Below, piece by piece: positions 24,464-33,393 of a stretch of DNA of 64,000 nt (position 1 is the stretch's first letter; each line of letters begins with the position of its first letter). This DNA comes from Lewinella sp. LCG006. GTDB taxonomy: Bacteria > Bacteroidota > Bacteroidia > Chitinophagales > Saprospiraceae. The stretch is taken from assembly GCF_040784935.1 (NCBI RefSeq), contig NZ_CP160680.1, positions 6,491,802 through 6,555,801 on the forward strand, in the 5' to 3' direction. A model generated the notes under the pieces. That model made no database searches. It worked only from the letters and a program-made list of their open reading frames with translations, and was not told the DNA's origin. The translations under genes and the position numbers were made by a program.

Positions 24464-24997
24464 ATGAGTGAAGAACTAAAAGGAAAACGCGTCACGGTTT
24501 CCAGTACGACCATGACCGAAATGATTATGCCCAACGATACCAACCCCATGGGCAACCTGATGGGAGGAAATCTCCTGCGTTGGATGGATATCGTATGTGG
24601 CATTTGCGCTGGCAAGCACTGTGAGCGCCACGTAGTGACGGCTTCTGTTGATCACGTCAGTTTCAAGAAAGCCATCAAGGTAGGAGATGTCATCACGCTG
24701 GAAGCCTCGGTCACCCGAGCCTTCCGTACTTCCGTTGAGGTCTTCGTAGAAGTCTACGCTACGGACATCAAGGGGCACAATCCTCGTCGCTGTAATTCTG
24801 CCTACTACACTTTTGTGGGACTAGATCAGGAAAACGGCAAGCCCGTTGAGATACCACAGGTTATCCCCGTTACCGAAATCGAGCAACAACGTTTTGATGC
24901 CGCCCCCCGCCGCCGGGAGATGCGCTTGATTCTGGGTGGTCGGCTTAAGCCAGAGAATGCGCCGGGGATCAGGGCGCTGTTTGAGTCTATTCTTTAG
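24464..24997 (+). CDS. Acyl-CoA thioesterase (hotdog fold)
   Basis: A 177-residue hotdog-fold enzyme hydrolysing acyl-CoA to free acid and CoA. It has the family opening NPMGNLMGGNLLRWMDIVCGICAGKHC (active-site Asn and Asp) and VTASVDHVSFKKAIKVGDVITLEASVTRAF. Size and motifs fit the YciA/BACH-like group. It is the last gene of the lipB cluster, with a terminator 15 bp later. Confidence 0.92.
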   Translation: MSEELKGKRVTVSSTTMTEMIMPNDTNPMGNLMGGNLLRWMDIVCGICAGKHCERHVVTASVDHVSFKKAIKVGDVITLEASVTRAFRTSVEVFVEVYATDIKGHNPRRCNSAYYTFVGLDQENGKPVEIPQVIPVTEIEQQRFDAAPRRREMRLILGGRLKPENAPGIRALFESIL

Positions 24998-25012
24998 GTG
25001 ACTTGTTATTAT

Positions 25013-25050
25013 AAAAAAGCCCGTTAGATAAACTGACAGGCTTTTTTATT
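25013..25050 (+). terminator. Terminator of the thioesterase gene
   Basis: aaaaaagcc (25013-25021) pairs with ggctttttt (25039-25047), giving a stem with a T tail on the plus strand. Its right half and the following bases (25035-25067) are repeated, with about four mismatches, at 30376-30408 inside the Rhs-cassette region. Confidence 0.8.
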
Positions 25051-25131
25051 GCAATAATTTAAAGATCATCCTCCGATCCACGCAATGCCGGCAGAGCCGC
25101 CACTGTACCCACCCTGCCTGCTCGCCGCACG

Positions 25132-26682
25132 CTAATCTTTATACACATTTAATCAAGCTTAATTTGATTGACAATTCGCCAAGCGGAGAGTTGCTCCTGA
25201 AATCTTCGCCATCCCCAGCGCATGGTTTTTGGCCCTGGTGGCGACTGGCTTTTGTAGCCACTGTACCCCCCCATTCTGCCGATTAACCATGCCAATCGAG
25301 CCAAGGACTCAGGAGGGTGGGGATTTTTTTGCTTTTGGGTTTGACCCTCATAGATCGGAATAAGTAGTTCCACGAAAGTCAGATCCTGCGTATCGATTAG
25401 TAATGTAGCCTTTTCTTGGTAGACATGGTCGCGGTCTTTGAGCAATTGTAATAAATGCAATGCCGCCTGCATGGCCATGATCACGAGTCGTTTCATAGCA
25501 ATGCCTGATTCAACCTGAGCGGATTCGCATTCTAGCCCTTTGGTTTTTAACAAGCTAAAAAGCTCCTCAATATTCCATCTATTTTGGTAGATATCGACAA
25601 TTTTCAATGCTTGATGCTCATTTTCAATGACCATATCCGTCCAGATCGTCCAATGAACAGGAGCCTCGCCATCAGGTACGCTGTGTTCCAATTCTTTGAG
25701 TTGTACAAAGTATAATGGAATTCGGTCTGGCCCTTGCGCTTTGGTACGATCTTTAGGCCGGGCAATCTCTACCCGACCATAACTCAAGGCCATCTTTGCT
25801 TTTCGGGCTTTGCGCTTTTTTTGTCTTGGGATAGCTACTTCAATGACGAGTCCCTTGGTAGCTTGCTCTTCTAAATACTGCCACAATAAATGCTTGCTGT
25901 CAGACTCGTCATAAATCACCCGCTGCTTGCTAGTGCGAATAACCAAATGATGATTGGGGGGCATTGGCTTAGCGAAGAGTTCGTAGATATCCCCTTCCCG
26001 ATCCATGACATGAACAACTTTTCCCCGATGCCCCTTTAAAACTTGTGTACTATAATCTATACTCTCCAACCAGCGATAAGAACTCTTCTGCTCAATAGGC
26101 TGCCTCTTGTAATTACGCTCATGTCGATTCGGTTGGTCTACACATCGATTCCAGATATGAAGGTGTGTGTAGCCCAATGGAAATCCACTATCGCCATCCA
26201 ACACAAGGCCGGGATGAAGAAAAAAACCGAATTCTTGATTCGTATCATCTTTCCAAAGTGGCCCCAAGTCCTCATCCGACTCACTTAAACGCCCCTTATG
26301 GCCAATTGCATTATAGTCGGTCGTGTCTTGTATGACATATAAATCCCGGTCAGCATACTCCTCCGTATACCAAGACTGGGTAATACTGTTCACCAGAGCA
26401 TCCATACTCAATCGATTGTTATTTAAAAATCGACTCATCCCCATTCGTTCTCGATGGTGTGTATTCAGTCGATTGGGAACACCGCTGCCACTTTTTATCA
26501 TCTGATGTAATATACGGTTTGCTCGTTTTTCTAAGCGAGCATCACCTAATTTATGATCAAATACTACACTAATAGCTGTCATAATTAACACGTGATTAAG
26601 TAGATATTACTGCGATTGCTTAGGCAGATCGTGTACGCCTCTACAAATATATTCGTAATCTTGCGATGTGTATAAAGATTAG
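25132..26682 (-). mobile_element. Insertion sequence, IS4 family (Tn5/IS50-like transposase)
   Basis: A complete 1,551-bp element. Terminal inverted repeats are perfect over 17 bp: ctaatctttatacacat at 25132-25148 and its complement at 26666-26682. A 10-bp direct repeat, tcgccgcacg, flanks both ends exactly (25122-25131 and 26683-26692), the expected target duplication length for IS4 relatives. One intact transposase gene fills the element. Perfect ends and duplication imply a recent insertion. Confidence 0.95.
25149..26582 (-). CDS. IS4-family DDE transposase, Tn5-like
   Basis: A 477-residue transposase, intact, from the ATG at 26582. The catalytic triad can be read: first Asp in VIQDTTDYN (D86), second Asp in VVHVMDREGDIYE, and the glutamate in the Y-x2-R-x3-E signature YQNRWNIEELFSLLKTKG. 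The DREGDIYE context and N-terminal DNA-binding region (FDHKLGDARLEKRANRIL) match the Tn5/IS50 branch. The stop lies one base inside the left terminal repeat, so the element is compact. No passenger gene is present. Confidence 0.95.
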   Translation of the reverse strand: MTAISVVFDHKLGDARLEKRANRILHQMIKSGSGVPNRLNTHHRERMGMSRFLNNNRLSMDALVNSITQSWYTEEYADRDLYVIQDTTDYNAIGHKGRLSESDEDLGPLWKDDTNQEFGFFLHPGLVLDGDSGFPLGYTHLHIWNRCVDQPNRHERNYKRQPIEQKSSYRWLESIDYSTQVLKGHRGKVVHVMDREGDIYELFAKPMPPNHHLVIRTSKQRVIYDESDSKHLLWQYLEEQATKGLVIEVAIPRQKKRKARKAKMALSYGRVEIARPKDRTKAQGPDRIPLYFVQLKELEHSVPDGEAPVHWTIWTDMVIENEHQALKIVDIYQNRWNIEELFSLLKTKGLECESAQVESGIAMKRLVIMAMQAALHLLQLLKDRDHVYQEKATLLIDTQDLTFVELLIPIYEGQTQKQKNPHPPESLARLAWLIGRMGGYSGYKSQSPPGPKTMRWGWRRFQEQLSAWRIVNQIKLD

Positions 26683-26741
26683 TCGCCGCACGGCAGGCAG
26701 GTGTGCGCTACACGTCCATTCGCTTAGGGCGCACGGCGTCT

Positions 26742-26760
26742 AGCTAGCCAGTGGGGGATT
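26742..26760. repeat. Short repeat downstream of cassette C
   Basis: agctagccagtgggggatt here matches agctagcaagtgggggact at 28689-28707 in 17 of 19 positions. Each copy lies just downstream of the stop of a putative immunity lipoprotein gene (26878 and 28720), so it may mark the end of a cassette. Confidence 0.45.
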
Positions 26761-26877
26761 CACGCGTAACTTGATTAAAATATGATAAACAATGTAAGCA
26801 TGCTGTCAATAGTATAGTTGTTAGTTTTACTTAGAAGGTACACACCAGGTTCTATAACCCAATTGTTATTCACATAA

Positions 26878-27402
26878 TCATTTAGCCGTATATATATGAT
26901 GCAATAACTCCAGCCTAATATCACCCCTTTGGTAGACTCTGTTGTCTAAAATTTTTAAAGTATCGGCACTCACACCAAGAATAAAAAACTCATCTTTTCT
27001 CCGTAACCCAAAACTCATTACTTCAATTTGTGTCGAGTCTTTCATAAAGCTACTGATAGGATAATATTTATCTATCAAGCTACCATTTCGCTCATAGGTT
27101 TCCAACTTAATATTTTGGAAAACATCTTGTTCTCTTAATTCTATTATGGTTTCGGGAAGAAAGTTGATCTCTTCAGAGTCGTTGCATTCCGAAAATATCA
27201 TCATTTGAGGAGGGGGAAAATCGAAGTTTTCCTTTATTAGCTGATAAGAATTTTTCTCATCATATGACATAACATACTCCCATTCTCCCTTGATCCTTTT
27301 CGAGATGTTATCCAAATGAAAAGGTTTGCTTTTACCCTCTTTGACTGTAGTGCAATTCAATATTAATATTAAAATCAGACCTGTAGTGCTAATCATTTTC
27401 AT
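26878..27402 (-). CDS. Lipoprotein, candidate immunity protein of cassette C
   Basis: A 174-residue lipoprotein: signal MKMISTTGLILILILNC with a lipobox ending at Cys17. The rest is a soluble domain with no recognised family (RIKGEWEYVMSYDE, then FFILGVSADTLKILDN, a lipocalin-like flavour at best). Its start overlaps the end of the putative Cys/His effector by 14 bp. That arrangement, repeated in the two other cassettes, is typical of toxin-immunity pairs. Periplasmic lipidation would suit a partner toxin that acts on the cell wall. Function is inference. Confidence 0.65.
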   Translation of the reverse strand: MKMISTTGLILILILNCTTVKEGKSKPFHLDNISKRIKGEWEYVMSYDEKNSYQLIKENFDFPPPQMMIFSECNDSEEINFLPETIIELREQDVFQNIKLETYERNGSLIDKYYPISSFMKDSTQIEVMSFGLRRKDEFFILGVSADTLKILDNRVYQRGDIRLELLHHIYTAK

Positions 27403-28231
27403 TTGTATCCATTAAGTTTACTCCTAAAATAGTAGTCCTGTTTTCATAAGCGGCACGCTCCCATAAGCTCTCACTTCCATGATAATCACTTATATAAATC
27501 CCGTTAATGTTACCATCATTATCGAATGAATATCTACGAAAAATCACATAATGACCTCCTCTTGCATATAGGTTGTCTTGATCAGTGGTATTCCATTTTT
27601 GTAATAGAGCTCCTTGTTGTAAGTTTCCATTCCAAACTCCAGTATTATTGACCGTTTCCCCATATCCGCGTCTAGAGAAAGGGCCACCAGCACCATATCC
27701 TATGAAAGGATCATTAGTTCCTACTGTTGCCGCAATCCTATGATCTATATTCCCACCGCTTACCGTTAAGTCCACGATACCCGAACCAGACTCATCAATG
27801 TACGCTTGTTGCGCCCTCGATTCCGACGTAGCATAGCAGACCCCCTCGCAATTGTCGTATAGATTAGCCTGCTGTTGGCTCAAAGCTATATCATCTGGAT
27901 TTGTGGTATACCAATCAGGAGCAGAATAATCTGCTGGAGCATTTGGTAAATTATCTAAATTTGATATTAGTTGAATTCCAACTCTGCTATTAATTGTCAT
28001 TTGCTCTGCACGACTTCCTTGTGTACTCCAACCGTCATTGCCCTTGTATATATGTTGGCCCACATCATAATACTTCTTTCCTCCTACGTCTATAATAGGT
28101 ACATCAAATAACACCAGCCCTCCTAACCACAAGACTCCTGCGACTTGATTGTTGGTTTCAACATAATTACCAATATTCAGTACTGGTGCAAAAAGAGTCG
28201 GATATGCCAAGTCTGCATCAAGATATTCCAC
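27389..28231 (-). CDS. Rhs-cassette C effector domain, putative Cys/His amidase or peptidase (frameshifted from its core)
   Basis: A 280-residue frame that begins right where the Rhs core ends in the neighbouring frame. The C-terminal half has a Cys-box, NCEGVCYATSESRAQQAY, and about 100 residues later a His-box, ARGGHYVIFRRYSFD, then ISDYHGS, the order Cys-His-Asp/Asn of NlpC/P60-, CHAP- and papain-like folds. That would make it a peptidoglycan amidase or a protease; the family is not certain. A two-base TG repeat at the junction (near 28228) puts it out of frame with the core, so it may be silent unless restored. Low GC compared with the housekeeping genes. Confidence 0.6.
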   Translation of the reverse strand: MEYLDADLAYPTLFAPVLNIGNYVETNNQVAGVLWLGGLVLFDVPIIDVGGKKYYDVGQHIYKGNDGWSTQGSRAEQMTINSRVGIQLISNLDNLPNAPADYSAPDWYTTNPDDIALSQQQANLYDNCEGVCYATSESRAQQAYIDESGSGIVDLTVSGGNIDHRIAATVGTNDPFIGYGAGGPFSRRGYGETVNNTGVWNGNLQQGALLQKWNTTDQDNLYARGGHYVIFRRYSFDNDGNINGIYISDYHGSESLWERAAYENRTTILGVNLMDTNEND

Positions 28232-28545
28232 AACCCATCTAAGTCGATTCCGTCAATAGGGCGATTGCTAGCGAACTGATAAGGCGTCAGCATCGGATAA
28301 TCAGGACTGAGTGGATCGACACTCAAAAACTTCCCAATACTCGGATTATAAATCCGGAACCCGTAGTCATAATGCGTAGCACTGCCCCATTCATCATTGG
28401 TGTCGGCCTCTTTCCCATTAAACCCAAAACGGTAATCACCAAAGTTAAAGGTTCTATTCTCCATTTTCAAGCCGAAGGGATAGTATTCGCTGGCATTGAT
28501 GGTATAGGTGGCAAGTCCGGCACCAAGTGACCGTTCATAGTAGCA
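28177..28545 (-). pseudogene. Truncated Rhs core of cassette C
   Basis: The hyperconserved Rhs tip: TYTINASEYYPFGLKMENRT, NFGDYRFGFNGKEADTNDEW, HYDYGFRIYNPSIGKFLSVD and PYQFASNRPIDGIDLDGL. The frame is open from 28545, but has no upstream Rhs repeats, no signal and only a weak internal ATG (28470). After DLDGL the frame runs into 16 non-homologous codons and stops, because of the TG duplication that shifts the effector domain. It is therefore a core remnant rather than a gene able to make an Rhs protein. Confidence 0.8.
28343..28510. repeat. Rhs-core direct repeat, copy C (short)
   Basis: This stretch is a diverged direct repeat of 30015-30374 and 32092-32476, all in the same orientation, and codes the YRFGFNGKEAD...RIYNPS segment. 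It is shorter: the similarity ends just upstream of the TINASEYYPFGL codons, where the other copies continue into a Cys-rich segment. Confidence 0.8.
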
Positions 28546-28688
28546 TTACTCAAGATCGTACTTCGCAACTTGCAGTTCACTAATTTAATGGAAGCCTACC
28601 GCCAGCTAGCCGCTTTGACATAGGCGGCTAAAAAAATTATTGCCCCTCACTGAAATTATTGTCTGTTTTTCTTGGAAGACAACATAAG

Positions 28689-28707
28689 AGCTAGCAAGTG
28701 GGGGACT
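28689..28707. repeat. Short repeat downstream of cassette B
   Basis: agctagcaagtgggggact, 17 of 19 identical to 26742-26760. It lies 13 bp beyond the stop of the cassette B lipoprotein gene. See that entry. Confidence 0.45.
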
Positions 28708-28719
28708 ATCATTACTTAG

Positions 28720-29181
28720 TCAACGTAAATCTTTATGTACATTTTGTAGAGACAAAGTGTCATTATTCCCAGCAATCGCTTTGATCCTAACGAAACACAC
28801 AGTATTAATCTGATCGTAGTTTTTAGATATAAACTTTCGTGCATCTTCAGAAAATAAGGAACCATTAATCTCAAATTCTTCCGTATGAGAATTGTCCAGT
28901 TTGAAAATCGCTGTGTAATTTAATATGTCACCATCAATTTCATTCGATCTAAACAACAACCCTTGAATAGTTCTTACATCTTTCTTCGGAGCTACTGTAT
29001 GAGATGCTGCGTCCAATATTACTGCTTCAATATGAGGAGGTGTATTGTTCGGATGAGCTTCTACTTCTGGGTTTAGATTACTTAATTCACCAGTCTTTGA
29101 GTTGTCAATATTACTACATCCATAAAAAAAAAGCAAGAAAAAATTGACACAGACAACTGTGTATAAATTACTATTCTTCAT
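28720..29181 (-). CDS. Lipoprotein, candidate immunity protein of cassette B
   Basis: A 153-residue lipoprotein with signal MKNSNLYTVVCVNFFLLFFYGC (lipobox FYGC) and a proline/asparagine-rich tether (NLNPEVEAHPNNTPPH), then a small soluble domain. It overlaps the stop of the Rhs-tip effector gene by 11 bp. No family is recognised; the immunity role rests on position and on the same layout in cassettes A and C. Confidence 0.62.
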   Translation of the reverse strand: MKNSNLYTVVCVNFFLLFFYGCSNIDNSKTGELSNLNPEVEAHPNNTPPHIEAVILDAASHTVAPKKDVRTIQGLLFRSNEIDGDILNYTAIFKLDNSHTEEFEINGSLFSEDARKFISKNYDQINTVCFVRIKAIAGNNDTLSLQNVHKDLR

Positions 29182-30292
29182 GTTCAGTTTTTTTTGATTC
29201 GGATAGCGGGATGGTTGTACCTTCTCCTTTAAGTAGATTTTCTAGAAGATTTTGATGAGCCTCATCCCAATCCAATTTAAAGTCTTCAGGGACTCCACCA
29301 AAAGATGTGATCCTTGGACGTCCTCCTGGGCTGTTTATTTGATAATACAAGCTTTGTAATTGTCCTAACTTATCAAAGTTTCCAAACAAAATAGCAGGAT
29401 TGTTGATATCAGTAGCGTTCACACTAATATCTATAGAGACCCCCCCCGTTATAGCTGCTTCTTGTTGAAGAGCATAGGTGTGAGCGGGGAGAAAACTTTT
29501 GCTATCATCAGCTATATTTTCTCCAAGTTTTAAATAAGCCTGTTTATAAAATTCTTCAGCAAAAAAATGTGCATAATGCCCCATTATATTTCTCCGGAAA
29601 GTTCGACCTTCAGCAGCATCTCCGTAAGCATTGAAATCTAAAGCGTCTAATTCATTTGATCCGTAGTTCTCAAAAAAGGCATAAGAATCCCTAAGCTTCA
29701 CATATGCAGTCTCTTCAGATTCTACCCATTGATTGAATACATTATAAGCTATTTGTTGTTCGTGTGTTAAATCGCCAATTTTTTCTAAGATAAATTCACC
29801 GTTTGTAGCGATGTCAACGTTTACACCACTCCCAAAAAAGCGTCTGAAATGACCTAGGAAAACATCTTTTTGCTCTTTCCCGTATGTAGGGAAAATAATT
29901 TTCCTCCCATCTGGATCTTTTGCCAATATTGGAGTATTGGCAACAAATGTATAAGGAGATATTGAGGAATACTCTTCTTGTAAAGGGTCGAGGCTCAACC
30001 AGCGTCCCACTGATGGATTATAAATCCTCGCCCCATAGTCATAATGCGTCGCACTTCCCCATTCATCATCGCTATCCGCTTCCTTCCCATTAAAGCCAAA
30101 ACGGTAGTCACTAAAGTTAAACTTTCTACCCTCCATTTCCAAGCCGAAGGGGTAATACTCGCTGGCGTTGATGGTATAAGCGCGATACCGTGGGTCCTCT
30201 TCGTCTCCGGTAAGGCTGAAACGACGATCTGAAATGACAGCCATGACGTTGCCGAGGTGGTTGGTGAGTTCGTAACGTTTGTCACCGCGCAC
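29171..30292 (-). CDS. Orphan Rhs tip with C-terminal effector domain, cassette B
   Basis: 373 residues from a GTG at 30292. Residues 1-130 are the Rhs core (RGDKRYELTNHLGNVMAVIS, then KEADSDDEWGSATHYDYGAR and SPYTFVANTPILAKDPDGR). The remaining 240 residues are cassette-specific, with segments FGSGVNVDIATNGEF, HYAHFFAEEFYKQAYLKLG and FGNFDKLGQLQSLYYQINS, and match no family I know. The frame is open upstream to 30442 and encodes a Cys-rich CSDGIQNGDETGIDCGG box, but without a start or signal peptide. It begins immediately after the stop of the preceding cassette's gene, as expected from recombination. Confidence 0.75.
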   Translation of the reverse strand: MRGDKRYELTNHLGNVMAVISDRRFSLTGDEEDPRYRAYTINASEYYPFGLEMEGRKFNFSDYRFGFNGKEADSDDEWGSATHYDYGARIYNPSVGRWLSLDPLQEEYSSISPYTFVANTPILAKDPDGRKIIFPTYGKEQKDVFLGHFRRFFGSGVNVDIATNGEFILEKIGDLTHEQQIAYNVFNQWVESEETAYVKLRDSYAFFENYGSNELDALDFNAYGDAAEGRTFRRNIMGHYAHFFAEEFYKQAYLKLGENIADDSKSFLPAHTYALQQEAAITGGVSIDISVNATDINNPAILFGNFDKLGQLQSLYYQINSPGGRPRITSFGGVPEDFKLDWDEAHQNLLENLLKGEGTTIPLSESKKTEHEE

Positions 30293-30374
30293 GAAGGTTT
30301 CCGGGCAGTCGTCACATTGGCTGCCGCCGCAGTCGATGCCTGTTTCGTCGCCATTTTGGATGCCATCGGAGCAG
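30015..30374. repeat. Rhs-core direct repeat, copy B
   Basis: 360 bp, strongly similar to 32092-32476 (same strand). It codes from the Cys-rich CSDGIQNGDETGIDCGG box through the RIYNPSVG phrase. The long near-identical run (about 30240-30374) shows recent shared origin or gene conversion with copy A. Confidence 0.85.
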
Positions 30375-30375
30375 G

Positions 30376-30408
30376 GACAGGCTTTTTTATTGCAATAGAT
30401 TTTAGATC
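30376..30408. repeat. 33-bp copy of the thioesterase terminator region
   Basis: Matches 25035-25067 in about 29 of 33 positions, including a perfect 22-bp run starting gacaggcttttttatt. It sits directly at the outer end of the copy B Rhs core, before the previous cassette's stop codon. Confidence 0.7.
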
Positions 30409-30442
30409 GGGCCCCCCTAAAAACCGTTCCGCAGTTTTCAAA

Positions 30443-31174
30443 TTAAGGCATTTCCATAAAGATCAAAATGTCCCCAAAAGAATGAGACTCCAATAACTCT
30501 TCTAGGAATTTAAGTTCATTAGCATCTTGACGTTCCAATTTAGATAAATCTATATCTTTGATATTATGTAATAATTGTTCAGTTATTGCAAATTCAAGTT
30601 TGTATACTCCATAATAGAAATTTTCATCATTGTTGAAATTTTCGTATATATTAGTTTCAAGACCAGCGTCATAATTTTCAGAAAGCAACTTAGAGAAACC
30701 AATACTTTTCAAAGTATTTTCGCTAAAAAATCTAGGAGACTGCAAAAACCATAAATCGTCATTCACCGTATATTTAAAATAAAAATATAGGCTTTTTAAA
30801 TAGTCAATATTTTCAGTACTTAAATTATTTACACCAGTAGAATAACAATCAACTATATAGAGAATAACGTTATCTCTAATTTTCGTAATCTCGTCATTTG
30901 TGAGTTGAATATATGTTCTCTTATTGTTAATATCATTTATATCAAAGTCTTTAAGTTGTGATATTGCTGTATTTTGTAGCTCAGTCAACATTACTTCAAG
31001 AGAAGGTGGTTGATTTACCGTAACGGACTTAGATATAAAGTAAAATCCATATATAAACCTGTCATTTCTCATACTTAAAGAGTCTAAACCAATTAATTTA
31101 AAAGGTAAAATACATAATAAGATTATAATTGCGGTCTTATTAGTAAAATTTAGCACCTTGATTTTATTTATCAT
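30443..31174 (-). CDS. Membrane-anchored protein, candidate immunity protein of cassette A
   Basis: 243 residues from the ATG at 31174 (MINKIKVLNFTNKTAIIILLCILPFKLIGL), which opens with a membrane anchor or uncleaved signal. An in-frame ATG at 31285 would add 37 residues overlapping the effector gene; it is possible but leaves the anchor internal. The soluble part is Asn/Asp/Leu-rich and helical (NIDYLKSLYFYFKYTVNDD). It is very AT-rich. No family is recognised. Position after the nuclease-like effector suggests an immunity role. Confidence 0.6.
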   Translation of the reverse strand: MINKIKVLNFTNKTAIIILLCILPFKLIGLDSLSMRNDRFIYGFYFISKSVTVNQPPSLEVMLTELQNTAISQLKDFDINDINNKRTYIQLTNDEITKIRDNVILYIVDCYSTGVNNLSTENIDYLKSLYFYFKYTVNDDLWFLQSPRFFSENTLKSIGFSKLLSENYDAGLETNIYENFNNDENFYYGVYKLEFAITEQLLHNIKDIDLSKLERQDANELKFLEELLESHSFGDILIFMEMP

Positions 31175-31277
31175 CGTTAGTTGTTTGATTGGTAGTAGTA
31201 TTCCGAATTTCTCTGATTGCATCTGTCGCGACTTCCTCACCTCTAGCATGAAGATCATCGACGAGCCACAGCACCCC

Positions 31278-32393
31278 TCATGCATCTGTAAAACGGTGAT
31301 ACAATGTCTGCATCAATCCACCGTTTGGAGTGCTTGCGGCTTTTTGCCATGCTGCCTTATCTGCCATTAATACTGACTCATTTCCATTAGAAAGATTTGC
31401 AATAGCTTGTCGTAATCCTTTAACAAAGTCAGAAGTAAGACTAGTTGGCGACCGGTTTGGATTTGTGGTTTTTACTTCAAAATTAATGTCTAGTCTACCA
31501 GAAAAGTTAGAACCTCTAAACTCAAACCTTGCAGGTTTACTTACGTTTCTTCCAGAAAAGTCATATCCTACAATATCAATCCCAAAAGTATTTCCTTGTG
31601 AGTCTCCTATTTCGCTAAAAGTCAGCCTAAAATCCCAAGTATTGCCTGAAATAAACTCAAATTCTTCGTCTCTATCAACAGGATTAAACTGGTATGTTAC
31701 TACAGCCGTACCATTGCTCATACGGCCAAGGGAACTATAAGACATTGACTTTCCCCATCCAATTGCTATACTAGCTGCAACTGATTCACCAGCGTTCCCT
31801 TTGATAGCATTCCATCTAGCATTACCATTATTATTATCCATATTATGCGCTCGTTGCCACCAATGATGAGGTCTAGCATTGAAAGAACTTGTAGAGGCTT
31901 CCAAAAGTAGGTCACCTACGTTTGTATTTCTGAGAGCAGCTCTAGTCTTTTGGTAGTTAGCAAGACTAGGAACGGGCTCTAATCCATCTAAATCTATGTT
32001 AAGTATAGGGCTATTCCCCGCAAACTGATAAGGCGTATACCAAGGATAATCCGGCGCCAACGGATCGACACTCAAAAACTTCCCGATACTCGGATTATAA
32101 ATCCTGAACCCATAGTCATAATGCGTCTGACGGAACTCACTATCGCCATATTCTCCGCCCCATTCGCCATCCGTATCCGCCTCCTTACCATTAAACCCAA
32201 AACGGTAGTTGCCAAAGTTAAACTTTCTGCCCTCCATTTCCAAGCCGAAGGGGTAGTATTCGCTGGCGTTGATGGTGTAGGCGCGGTAGCGTGGATCCTC
32301 TTCGTCGCCGGTGAGGGAGAAGCGGCGATCTGAGATGACAGCCATGACGTTGCCGAGGTGGTTGGTGAGTTCGTAGCGTTTGTCACCGCGCAC
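31278..32393 (-). CDS. Orphan Rhs tip with putative PD-(D/E)XK nuclease effector, cassette A
   Basis: 371 residues from a GTG at 32393. Residues 1-140 are the Rhs core, ending PYQFAGNSPILNIDLDGLEP. The cassette-specific part shows NAIKGNAGESVAASIA (helix with Glu), NTFGIDIVGYDFSG (Asp) and NFEVKTTNPN (E-x-K) in the order and spacing of PD-(D/E)XK nucleases, as found in many polymorphic toxins. The frame is open upstream to 32492, again through the CSDGIQNGDETGIDCGG box, without signal or start. DNase activity is inferred from the motif pattern only. Confidence 0.72.
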   Translation of the reverse strand: MRGDKRYELTNHLGNVMAVISDRRFSLTGDEEDPRYRAYTINASEYYPFGLEMEGRKFNFGNYRFGFNGKEADTDGEWGGEYGDSEFRQTHYDYGFRIYNPSIGKFLSVDPLAPDYPWYTPYQFAGNSPILNIDLDGLEPVPSLANYQKTRAALRNTNVGDLLLEASTSSFNARPHHWWQRAHNMDNNNGNARWNAIKGNAGESVAASIAIGWGKSMSYSSLGRMSNGTAVVTYQFNPVDRDEEFEFISGNTWDFRLTFSEIGDSQGNTFGIDIVGYDFSGRNVSKPARFEFRGSNFSGRLDINFEVKTTNPNRSPTSLTSDFVKGLRQAIANLSNGNESVLMADKAAWQKAASTPNGGLMQTLYHRFTDA

Positions 32394-32476
32394 GAAGGTT
32401 TCCGGGCAGTCGTCACATTGGCTACCGCCGCAGTCGATGCCTGTTTCGTCGCCGTTTTGGATGCCATCGGAGCAGG
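32092..32476. repeat. Rhs-core direct repeat, copy A
   Basis: 385 bp, the longest copy; it carries an in-frame extra segment (coding GEYGDSEFRQ) relative to copy B. Together with copies B and C it forms three same-orientation repeats about 2 kb apart, each preceding a different effector domain. Confidence 0.85.
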
Positions 32477-32671
32477 TTGCGGTCTCAGTTCCCTACTCAA
32501 AAAATACACCCGCGAAAATCACAGCTAGCTTATGTTCAAAAAATGGTTTTCCTGATAGCGAGTGAACCAACTCATTGGATATTAGTTGATTGTAGTTTAA
32601 ATAGATGACTGGAGTAGAGTAGGCAGAATAATCTCCTTATAGCATGAGAAATAAGCATCAAATAGTGAGAC

Positions 32672-33085
32672 TTAAACACGTATGTTAGTATCAATTAACG
32701 TGTATTTTCCAAATAAATCATCCTCGATTTTAACATTAGCAATATCAATACCAACATACATTAATGCATGTATAAGATCAGTGTAGTTACTCAATGGTGA
32801 ATGATGAATAAGAATTGTTGCCTTCTTGTCATATACCTGAATATCCTCCCACTGCCAATTACTCTTGCTAATTTCATTTAACCAAGTTTCTTTTTCAAGT
32901 AAATAAGAATTTTTACTTTTTTCAACAAACGTCTGTTGATCAAAAGATTCTAAAAAAGAAATAAGTATCTCATCATATCTCTTTGATCGAGCAGCATCAA
33001 TGATTTTGACAACTCTCTCAAGGCGATTGTGTAAATCTACCGTGTCACCTATATGGATAAAAACTCTCTTATTTATATGACACAT
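32672..33085 (-). CDS. Unknown protein, possible orphan immunity gene
   Basis: A 137-residue cytoplasmic protein, charged, with helices and strands (VFIHIGDTVDLHNRLERVVK, DKKATILIHHSPLSNYTDL). It has no signal and no known family. It lies at the outer edge of the Rhs-tip array, same strand and low GC. Orphan immunity genes commonly remain at such edges after their toxin is lost, but nothing in the protein proves that. The 180 bp between it and cassette A hold no feature I can name. Confidence 0.5.
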   Translation of the reverse strand: MCHINKRVFIHIGDTVDLHNRLERVVKIIDAARSKRYDEILISFLESFDQQTFVEKSKNSYLLEKETWLNEISKSNWQWEDIQVYDKKATILIHHSPLSNYTDLIHALMYVGIDIANVKIEDDLFGKYTLIDTNIRV

Positions 33086-33255
33086 AATTCAAGTTAGTAG
33101 TACTAATTGTAGCAGTCTTACTGTCTTACTATTGTAGAAGCTTCGAAAATCACTTGTGGAAATTCTATACGCCGATCCTCCGTTCATCGGTAGTGGATCT
33201 CACAAAAATACTTGGCCATCGACAATTTTATCTATCAACACAAGGCGCATTGTAG

Positions 33256-33369
33256 TCCCAAGACTACAAATTTTATATCTCTCTGGTCTCCTGACCAGCG
33301 AAAAAGAGTCAGAGCAAGATGCTGCTCGGGAGACCAGCAGGATATAACAAGTTAGTCTGGGGACTAACT
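33256..33369. repeat. Head-to-head pair of REP-like two-palindrome elements
   Basis: Left unit: hairpin gtagtc-ccaa-gactac (33252-33267 region), then atatct, then the 16-bp palindrome ctggtctcctgaccag (33283-33298). Right unit, inverted: ctgctcgggagaccag (about 33323-33338), then gatat, then gttagtc-tggg-gactaac (33351-33368). A third unit with the same order is at 59555-59601. The flanking 33086-33393 gap has no other feature. Confidence 0.65.
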
Positions 33370-33393
33370 CGCGCGATTTTTGATAGCGCCTAC

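Follow-up and report, generated by a model that had tools for sequence, protein, structure and literature searches.

Three Rhs-type gene units lie in tandem in Lewinella sp. LCG006, and the question that they raise is what such a row of toxin tips is for when no full-length rhs gene heads it. In rhs loci, a GC-rich core is contrasted with AT-rich, unrelated tips, for which a tip-displacement model was proposed (Jackson 2009, PMC2935791), and orphan (dissociated) Rhs-CT/immunity modules have been known since 2009-2011 (PMC2935791, PMC3150448). A sequence-only reading of the window, by which we mean the whole 64,000-nt stretch that was analysed (contig NZ_CP160680.1, positions 6,491,802 to 6,555,801), had pictured three functional cassettes able to enter, by recombination, an rhs gene that is expressed from another place in the genome.

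Organization of the array

The three units occupy positions 32492-26878 on the minus strand, and in each an Rhs_assc_core fragment precedes a distinct C-terminal domain (CT), with a small gene after it (Table 1). All three cores matched TIGR03696 (Rhs_assc_core) above its cut-off, and a Cys motif, CxDGIQNGDExGIDCGG (CSDGIQNGDETGIDCGGSQC), is found just ahead of the core in both unit 1 and unit 2. The cores are DNA repeats of one another: 32158-32457 is 91% identical to 30057-30356 over 300 nt, 30015-30178 is 85% identical to 28343-28506, and 32005-32126 is 83% identical to 28256-28377. CT1, CT2 and CT3 are mutually unrelated. The GC content is about 49-53% in the cores of units 1 and 2, and 26-41% in the tips and immunity genes. 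The core frames open after a stop codon, and an in-frame ATG, GTG or TTG was sought ahead of the cores and found in none of the three units. The layout given by the sequence-only reading was confirmed in its same-strand order of core, CT and small gene, in the direct core repeats (83-91% identity), in the abrupt frame openings and in the small genes with export-like N-termini that overlap or trail the effector stop. The locus is almost certainly an orphan Rhs-CT array.

Table 1. Features of the array and of the island that contains it (window coordinates).
Feature	Coordinates	Strand	Remarks
Island	24998..33393	.	Between thioesterase (24464-24997) and AsmA-like gene (36480-33394)
IS element	25113..26701	-	DDE transposase ORF 26591-25149; 36-nt inverted repeats 25113-25148 and 26666-26701
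imm3, putative lipoprotein immunity	26878..27402	-	Overlaps toxin; weakly resembles the gene paired with the L049 relative of CT3
CT3, unit 3	27389..28231	-	Out of frame with unit 3 core
Unit 3 core fragment, short	28231..28540	-	TIGR03696 2.1e-14; frame runs to stop at 28177
imm2, putative lipoprotein immunity	28720..29181	-	Start overlaps toxin stop
CT2, unit 2, intact	29171..29902	-	Relatives on different cores, tips in L045 and L046
Unit 2 core fragment	29903..30442	-	Chimeric; TIGR03696 7.2e-16
imm1, putative immunity protein	30443..31189	-	Hydrophobic N-terminal export signal
CT1, unit 1	31278..31973	-	TGA at 31278; remote relative at L132 Rhs tip
Unit 1 core fragment	31974..32492	-	Cys motif CxDGIQNGDExGIDCGG, then RGDKRYELTNHLGNV...DLDGLEP; TIGR03696 5.5e-11; without start codon ahead
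137-aa ORF	32672..33085	-	Non-exported, no family; 5' of unit 1

The IS element borders the array. A terminator-like sequence of 33-36 nt was observed in three copies, two in the window (25035-25067 and 30376-30408, the latter directly preceding the unit 2 core) and one at genome positions 6478899-6478934. The 33-nt repeat at 25035/30376, with its further copy at 6478899 and its terminator-like look, was not taken for an attachment site.

Condition of the units

The toxin fragments have neither a start nor a delivery part, as is characteristic of orphan modules. Unit 2 is intact. In unit 3, the core and CT3 are in different frames, the former stopping at 28177 and the latter opening at 28231, and this break is a real lesion because in the L049 relative DLDGLE reads directly into the CT3-type domain in the same frame; it is also the only clear frame lesion in the array. 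In unit 1, the ORF stops at 31278, but about 38 further codons are open in frame up to the start of imm1, so that CT1 may be truncated. The earlier view of three functional cassettes was thus not upheld, and the missing start, the missing delivery part and the frameshift of unit 3 argue that the toxins would not be made as such. DNA similarity of unit 2 to units 1 and 3 ends at about 30014, within the core, which marks an old recombination point and makes unit 2 a core chimera.

The reading frames of imm1, imm2 and imm3 are all open and intact. Their export signals were assigned by a heuristic and by eye, rather than with SignalP, to a lipobox (FYGC) in imm2, a lipobox-like ILNC in imm3 and a hydrophobic signal in imm1. 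The 137-aa ORF upstream of unit 1 is possibly a lone immunity gene. The canonical Bacteroidota promoter pattern had no site in the array, and its matches in the window were not above chance.

These data bear on the main rival explanation, by which the array would be mere debris left by the decay of a former rhs locus, its toxin and immunity genes alike having no function today. This would account for the frameshift of unit 3, the possible truncation of unit 1, the IS at the edge and the array's lack of a canonical promoter pattern, but it fits poorly with the open state of CT2 and of every immunity ORF, with the recurrence of such arrays in the order and with the expression of orphan immunity in a CDI model (PMC3150448). 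We consider it rather unlikely, although it is the strongest of the rivals.

Search for a full-length partner gene

The host genome is a single contig of 7.5 Mb. A protein search with the core found nine places in it, four of which are of this core type, namely the three array units and an ORF of orphan size, 71% identical, that lies at 5.58 Mb, and a DNA search of the same genome with the core gave no place beyond those four. Immediately upstream of the array there are only the 137-aa ORF and then the AsmA-like gene, in agreement with the earlier statement that the locus has no full-length Rhs gene; the whole-genome check for a full-length Rhs gene matching the core repeat, which the sequence-only reading had proposed, returned orphan-sized places only.

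Two full-length rhs genes are present at 6.97-7.0 Mb (L030:4325-11674 and L031:3410-14662), coding for 2450 and 3751 aa from a start codon, and the longest exact word that they share with the array cores is 14 nt. In contrast, an orphan at 6.48 Mb is 88.8% identical to the first of these genes over 205 nt, and another at 6.82 Mb is 89.9% identical to the second over 544 nt. Therefore, homology-driven displacement and reloading are plausible for other orphans in the genome. They are not plausible for the array, since no gene here offers a homologous target for the recombination that the earlier reading supposed. The two full-length genes align with each other at 98% identity across the initial 155 nt, which cover the signal peptide, and the comparison gave no second alignment above 60 nt. 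Besides the array, the genome holds three orphan Rhs tip loci, L032:2120-3520, L033:2912-3736 and L029:3053-5053; for two of these three, the DNA identity to the resident full-length genes is about 89%, and L029 holds an additional, second tip remnant.

A GTDB-wide scan with the core recovered mostly proteins that share CxDGIQNGDExGIDCGG alone, and not full-length Rhs proteins with this core. The comparison covered one genome per species, and a conspecific strain may carry the head gene.

In Salmonella, reloading of orphan rhs tips by recombination onto the main rhs gene has been shown (PMC3967940), and the array could likewise be a toxin reservoir from which core recombination reloads cassettes onto a full-length gene. 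The core repeats, the past recombination in unit 2 and the presence of a full-length gene plus an orphan at about 89% for two other core types of the genome would all suit such a role. However, this core type is limited to orphan fragments in a single-contig genome, the shared words do not exceed 14 nt and unit 3 is frameshifted, which together make a toxin reservoir improbable.

Genomic context of the island

The array lies in an island, and compared with congeners the whole block is inserted DNA. In the congeners G001 and G003, the thioesterase and AsmA-like genes are adjacent with nothing between them, whereas in the closest species, G002, the genes on that side of the thioesterase gene code for subunits of a type I restriction-modification system and for an AAA/TOPRIM protein, after which the contig ends. 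The site is thus a likely hotspot of conflict genes. The comparison loci for this site were L223:2580-11228, L224 and L226.

Relatives of the C-terminal domains

Profile searches of Pfam, NCBIfam and PDB with the CTs gave no real match, and single-sequence AlphaFold models had a pLDDT of 36 for CT1 and 45 for CT2, these structures being unusable. Relatives were found at Rhs tips instead. CT2 has relatives on other Rhs cores, at the tips in L045 and L046, with small downstream partners that carry export signals, and its conserved motifs HxHFFxEQ and SHxxALxxE resemble a metal site. For CT3, L049, L050 and L051 hold relatives, again at Rhs tips whose cores are different, and each is followed by a small gene with an export signal. 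A Cys, a His (GHxxIF) and an Asp are invariant in four relatives, which suggests a papain/NlpC-like thiol hydrolase; a family match of this type was sought in Pfam and PDB profiles and none was obtained.

For CT1, a single remote relative was found; it belongs to an Rhs cassette in L132 and has an exported gene after it. The motif of CT1, GNAGE...EVKT, is nuclease-like, and from it a PD-(D/E)xK nuclease was considered, but this assignment is unproven and conflicts with the exported partner. Thus, unrelated CTs recur on other cores, as seen with CT2 and CT3, CT1 having its remote relative only.

When the small partner genes were compared across cassettes, imm2 scored z=3.2 against the L046 partner and imm3 scored z=3.5 against the L049 partner, all remaining comparisons being at or below 1.7; partner homology was not detected for imm1. 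This points to a weak but specific homology of partners across cassettes. The idea that the array codes for stand-alone short secreted proteins, with no toxin/immunity link, could appeal to the frequency of export signals among small genes of these genomes (38 of 117 control genes). Yet the relatives of CT2 and CT3 show the same succession of core, CT and small gene with different Rhs cores, and the core ORFs have no translation start, so that this explanation is hardly credible.

Order-wide survey of tips and partners

A core profile applied to the loci retrieved from the order yielded 106 distinct tips (at least 60 aa, with 700 nt of downstream sequence), and an adjacent gene was present for 97. 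Export was scored with a simple signal-peptide heuristic, and 117 control genes were scored identically. In this set, which was selected by similarity to one core and drawn from draft genomes of relatives, 70/97 tip-adjacent genes looked exported or membrane-anchored compared to 38/117 controls (Fisher p=6e-9). Therefore, exported immunity proteins, which had been called unusual, are instead the majority state in the order. A lipobox was present, by the same kind of heuristic, in 32/97 tip partners and 11/117 controls (Fisher p=3e-5), whereas Imm65 was deemed the sole lipoprotein immunity family in a survey of polymorphic toxins (Zhang 2012, PMC3482391). A stricter earlier survey by regular expressions, superseded by the profile survey, had given 36 tips and the same trend.

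The tips also differed with the location of their partners. HExxH was found in 15/70 tips with exported partners and in 0/27 with non-exported ones (p=0.009), and GxSxG in 13/70 and 0/27, respectively (p=0.017). The Pfam matches of tips with exported partners were M91, reprolysin-like, M66, JAB1, lipase and Tle phospholipase, as well as one tip with Ntox44 and one tip each in a few families of uncertain meaning, whereas those of tips with non-exported partners were colicin DNase, AHH/LHH, URI2, deaminase and Tse2-type ART. Tandem tips were also seen elsewhere in the order, in G021, where contig C35 has six tips and no head upstream, and where several tips on contig C3 stand behind a head gene of 2218 aa.

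In the Lewinella genome, both full-length Rhs proteins begin with a Sec signal peptide, and one of them bears Toxin-JAB1 and is followed by a lipoprotein-type gene. The T9SS component SprA is present, and TssK (PF05936), the single T6SS marker tested, had no match. These data fit a scheme in which Rhs toxins cross the periplasm and have the envelope as their site of action, and the survey gives order-wide backing to the earlier suggestion that exported partners imply envelope-acting toxins. On these grounds, CT1-CT3 are expected to act in the periplasm or envelope. CT1 is the least certain of the three, as its EVKT nuclease-like motif would fit a cytoplasmic target and counts against an envelope site.

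Comparison with known systems

The sequence-only reading had held that the cassettes were not described anywhere, which is true of these sequences, but not of this kind of locus (PMC2935791, PMC3150448, PMC3967940, PMC3482391). As in the dissociated tips of Jackson 2009 (PMC2935791), tandem core fragments carry unrelated AT-rich tips and a GC-rich core. However, those tips trail a full-length gene with an identical core, and here there is no such gene behind which the array would stand, and the divergence among its cores amounts to 9-15% or more. The startless toxin fragment followed by an intact immunity gene is shared with orphan cdiA-CT/cdiI and rhs-CT/rhsI modules (PMC3150448, PMC3967940), among which disruption by IS is also known (Poole 2011, PMC3150448; Koskiniemi 2014, PMC3967940), although those orphans lie behind the main cdi/rhs gene, and recombination onto a main gene is without a target here. 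The polymorphic toxins of Zhang 2012 (PMC3482391) are similar in that cassettes recombine at the 3' tip and in their papain-like, JAB and zincin tips in Bacteroidetes. TANFOR toxins (Jana 2020, PMC7073777), in the parts of that description considered here, are likewise specific to Bacteroidota, with a proposed T9SS/Sec route and a variable C-terminal toxin, but they have another N-terminus and mostly nuclease tips, and those parts describe no orphan arrays.

Discussion

The explanation that we favour, and hold to be probable, is that the locus is a headless, partly decayed orphan Rhs-CT/immunity array acquired with an island, whose toxin halves are silent and decaying and whose immunity half has been kept. 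Recombination within the conserved core would swap tips together with their immunity genes, and tips displaced in this way would pile up as tandem cassettes; the array would have arrived as an island, with no matching full-length gene remaining at the locus. The intact imm genes, if expressed, could yield periplasmic or membrane-anchored proteins that guard against envelope-acting Rhs toxins. The remaining use of the array is thus likely to be immunity rather than toxin supply. Points that count against this explanation are the weak homology of the partners, the nuclease-like motif of CT1 and the fact that just one clear frame lesion was seen.

The array makes it testable whether orphan arrays are retained for toxins or for immunity. 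A broader proposal, offered tentatively as one that may well prove wrong, is that in this order Rhs toxins cross the envelope and have it as their main site of action, so that the export signal of the immunity protein reads out the target compartment of the toxin, and that headless arrays are kept as banks of periplasmic immunity and not of toxins. Apart from being headless, the array is an ordinary orphan-tip locus, and the rule from the survey is the more useful result: the localisation of the immunity gene separates protease and lipase tips from nuclease, deaminase and ART tips, and so provides a simple rule for the site of action of an uncharacterized tip.
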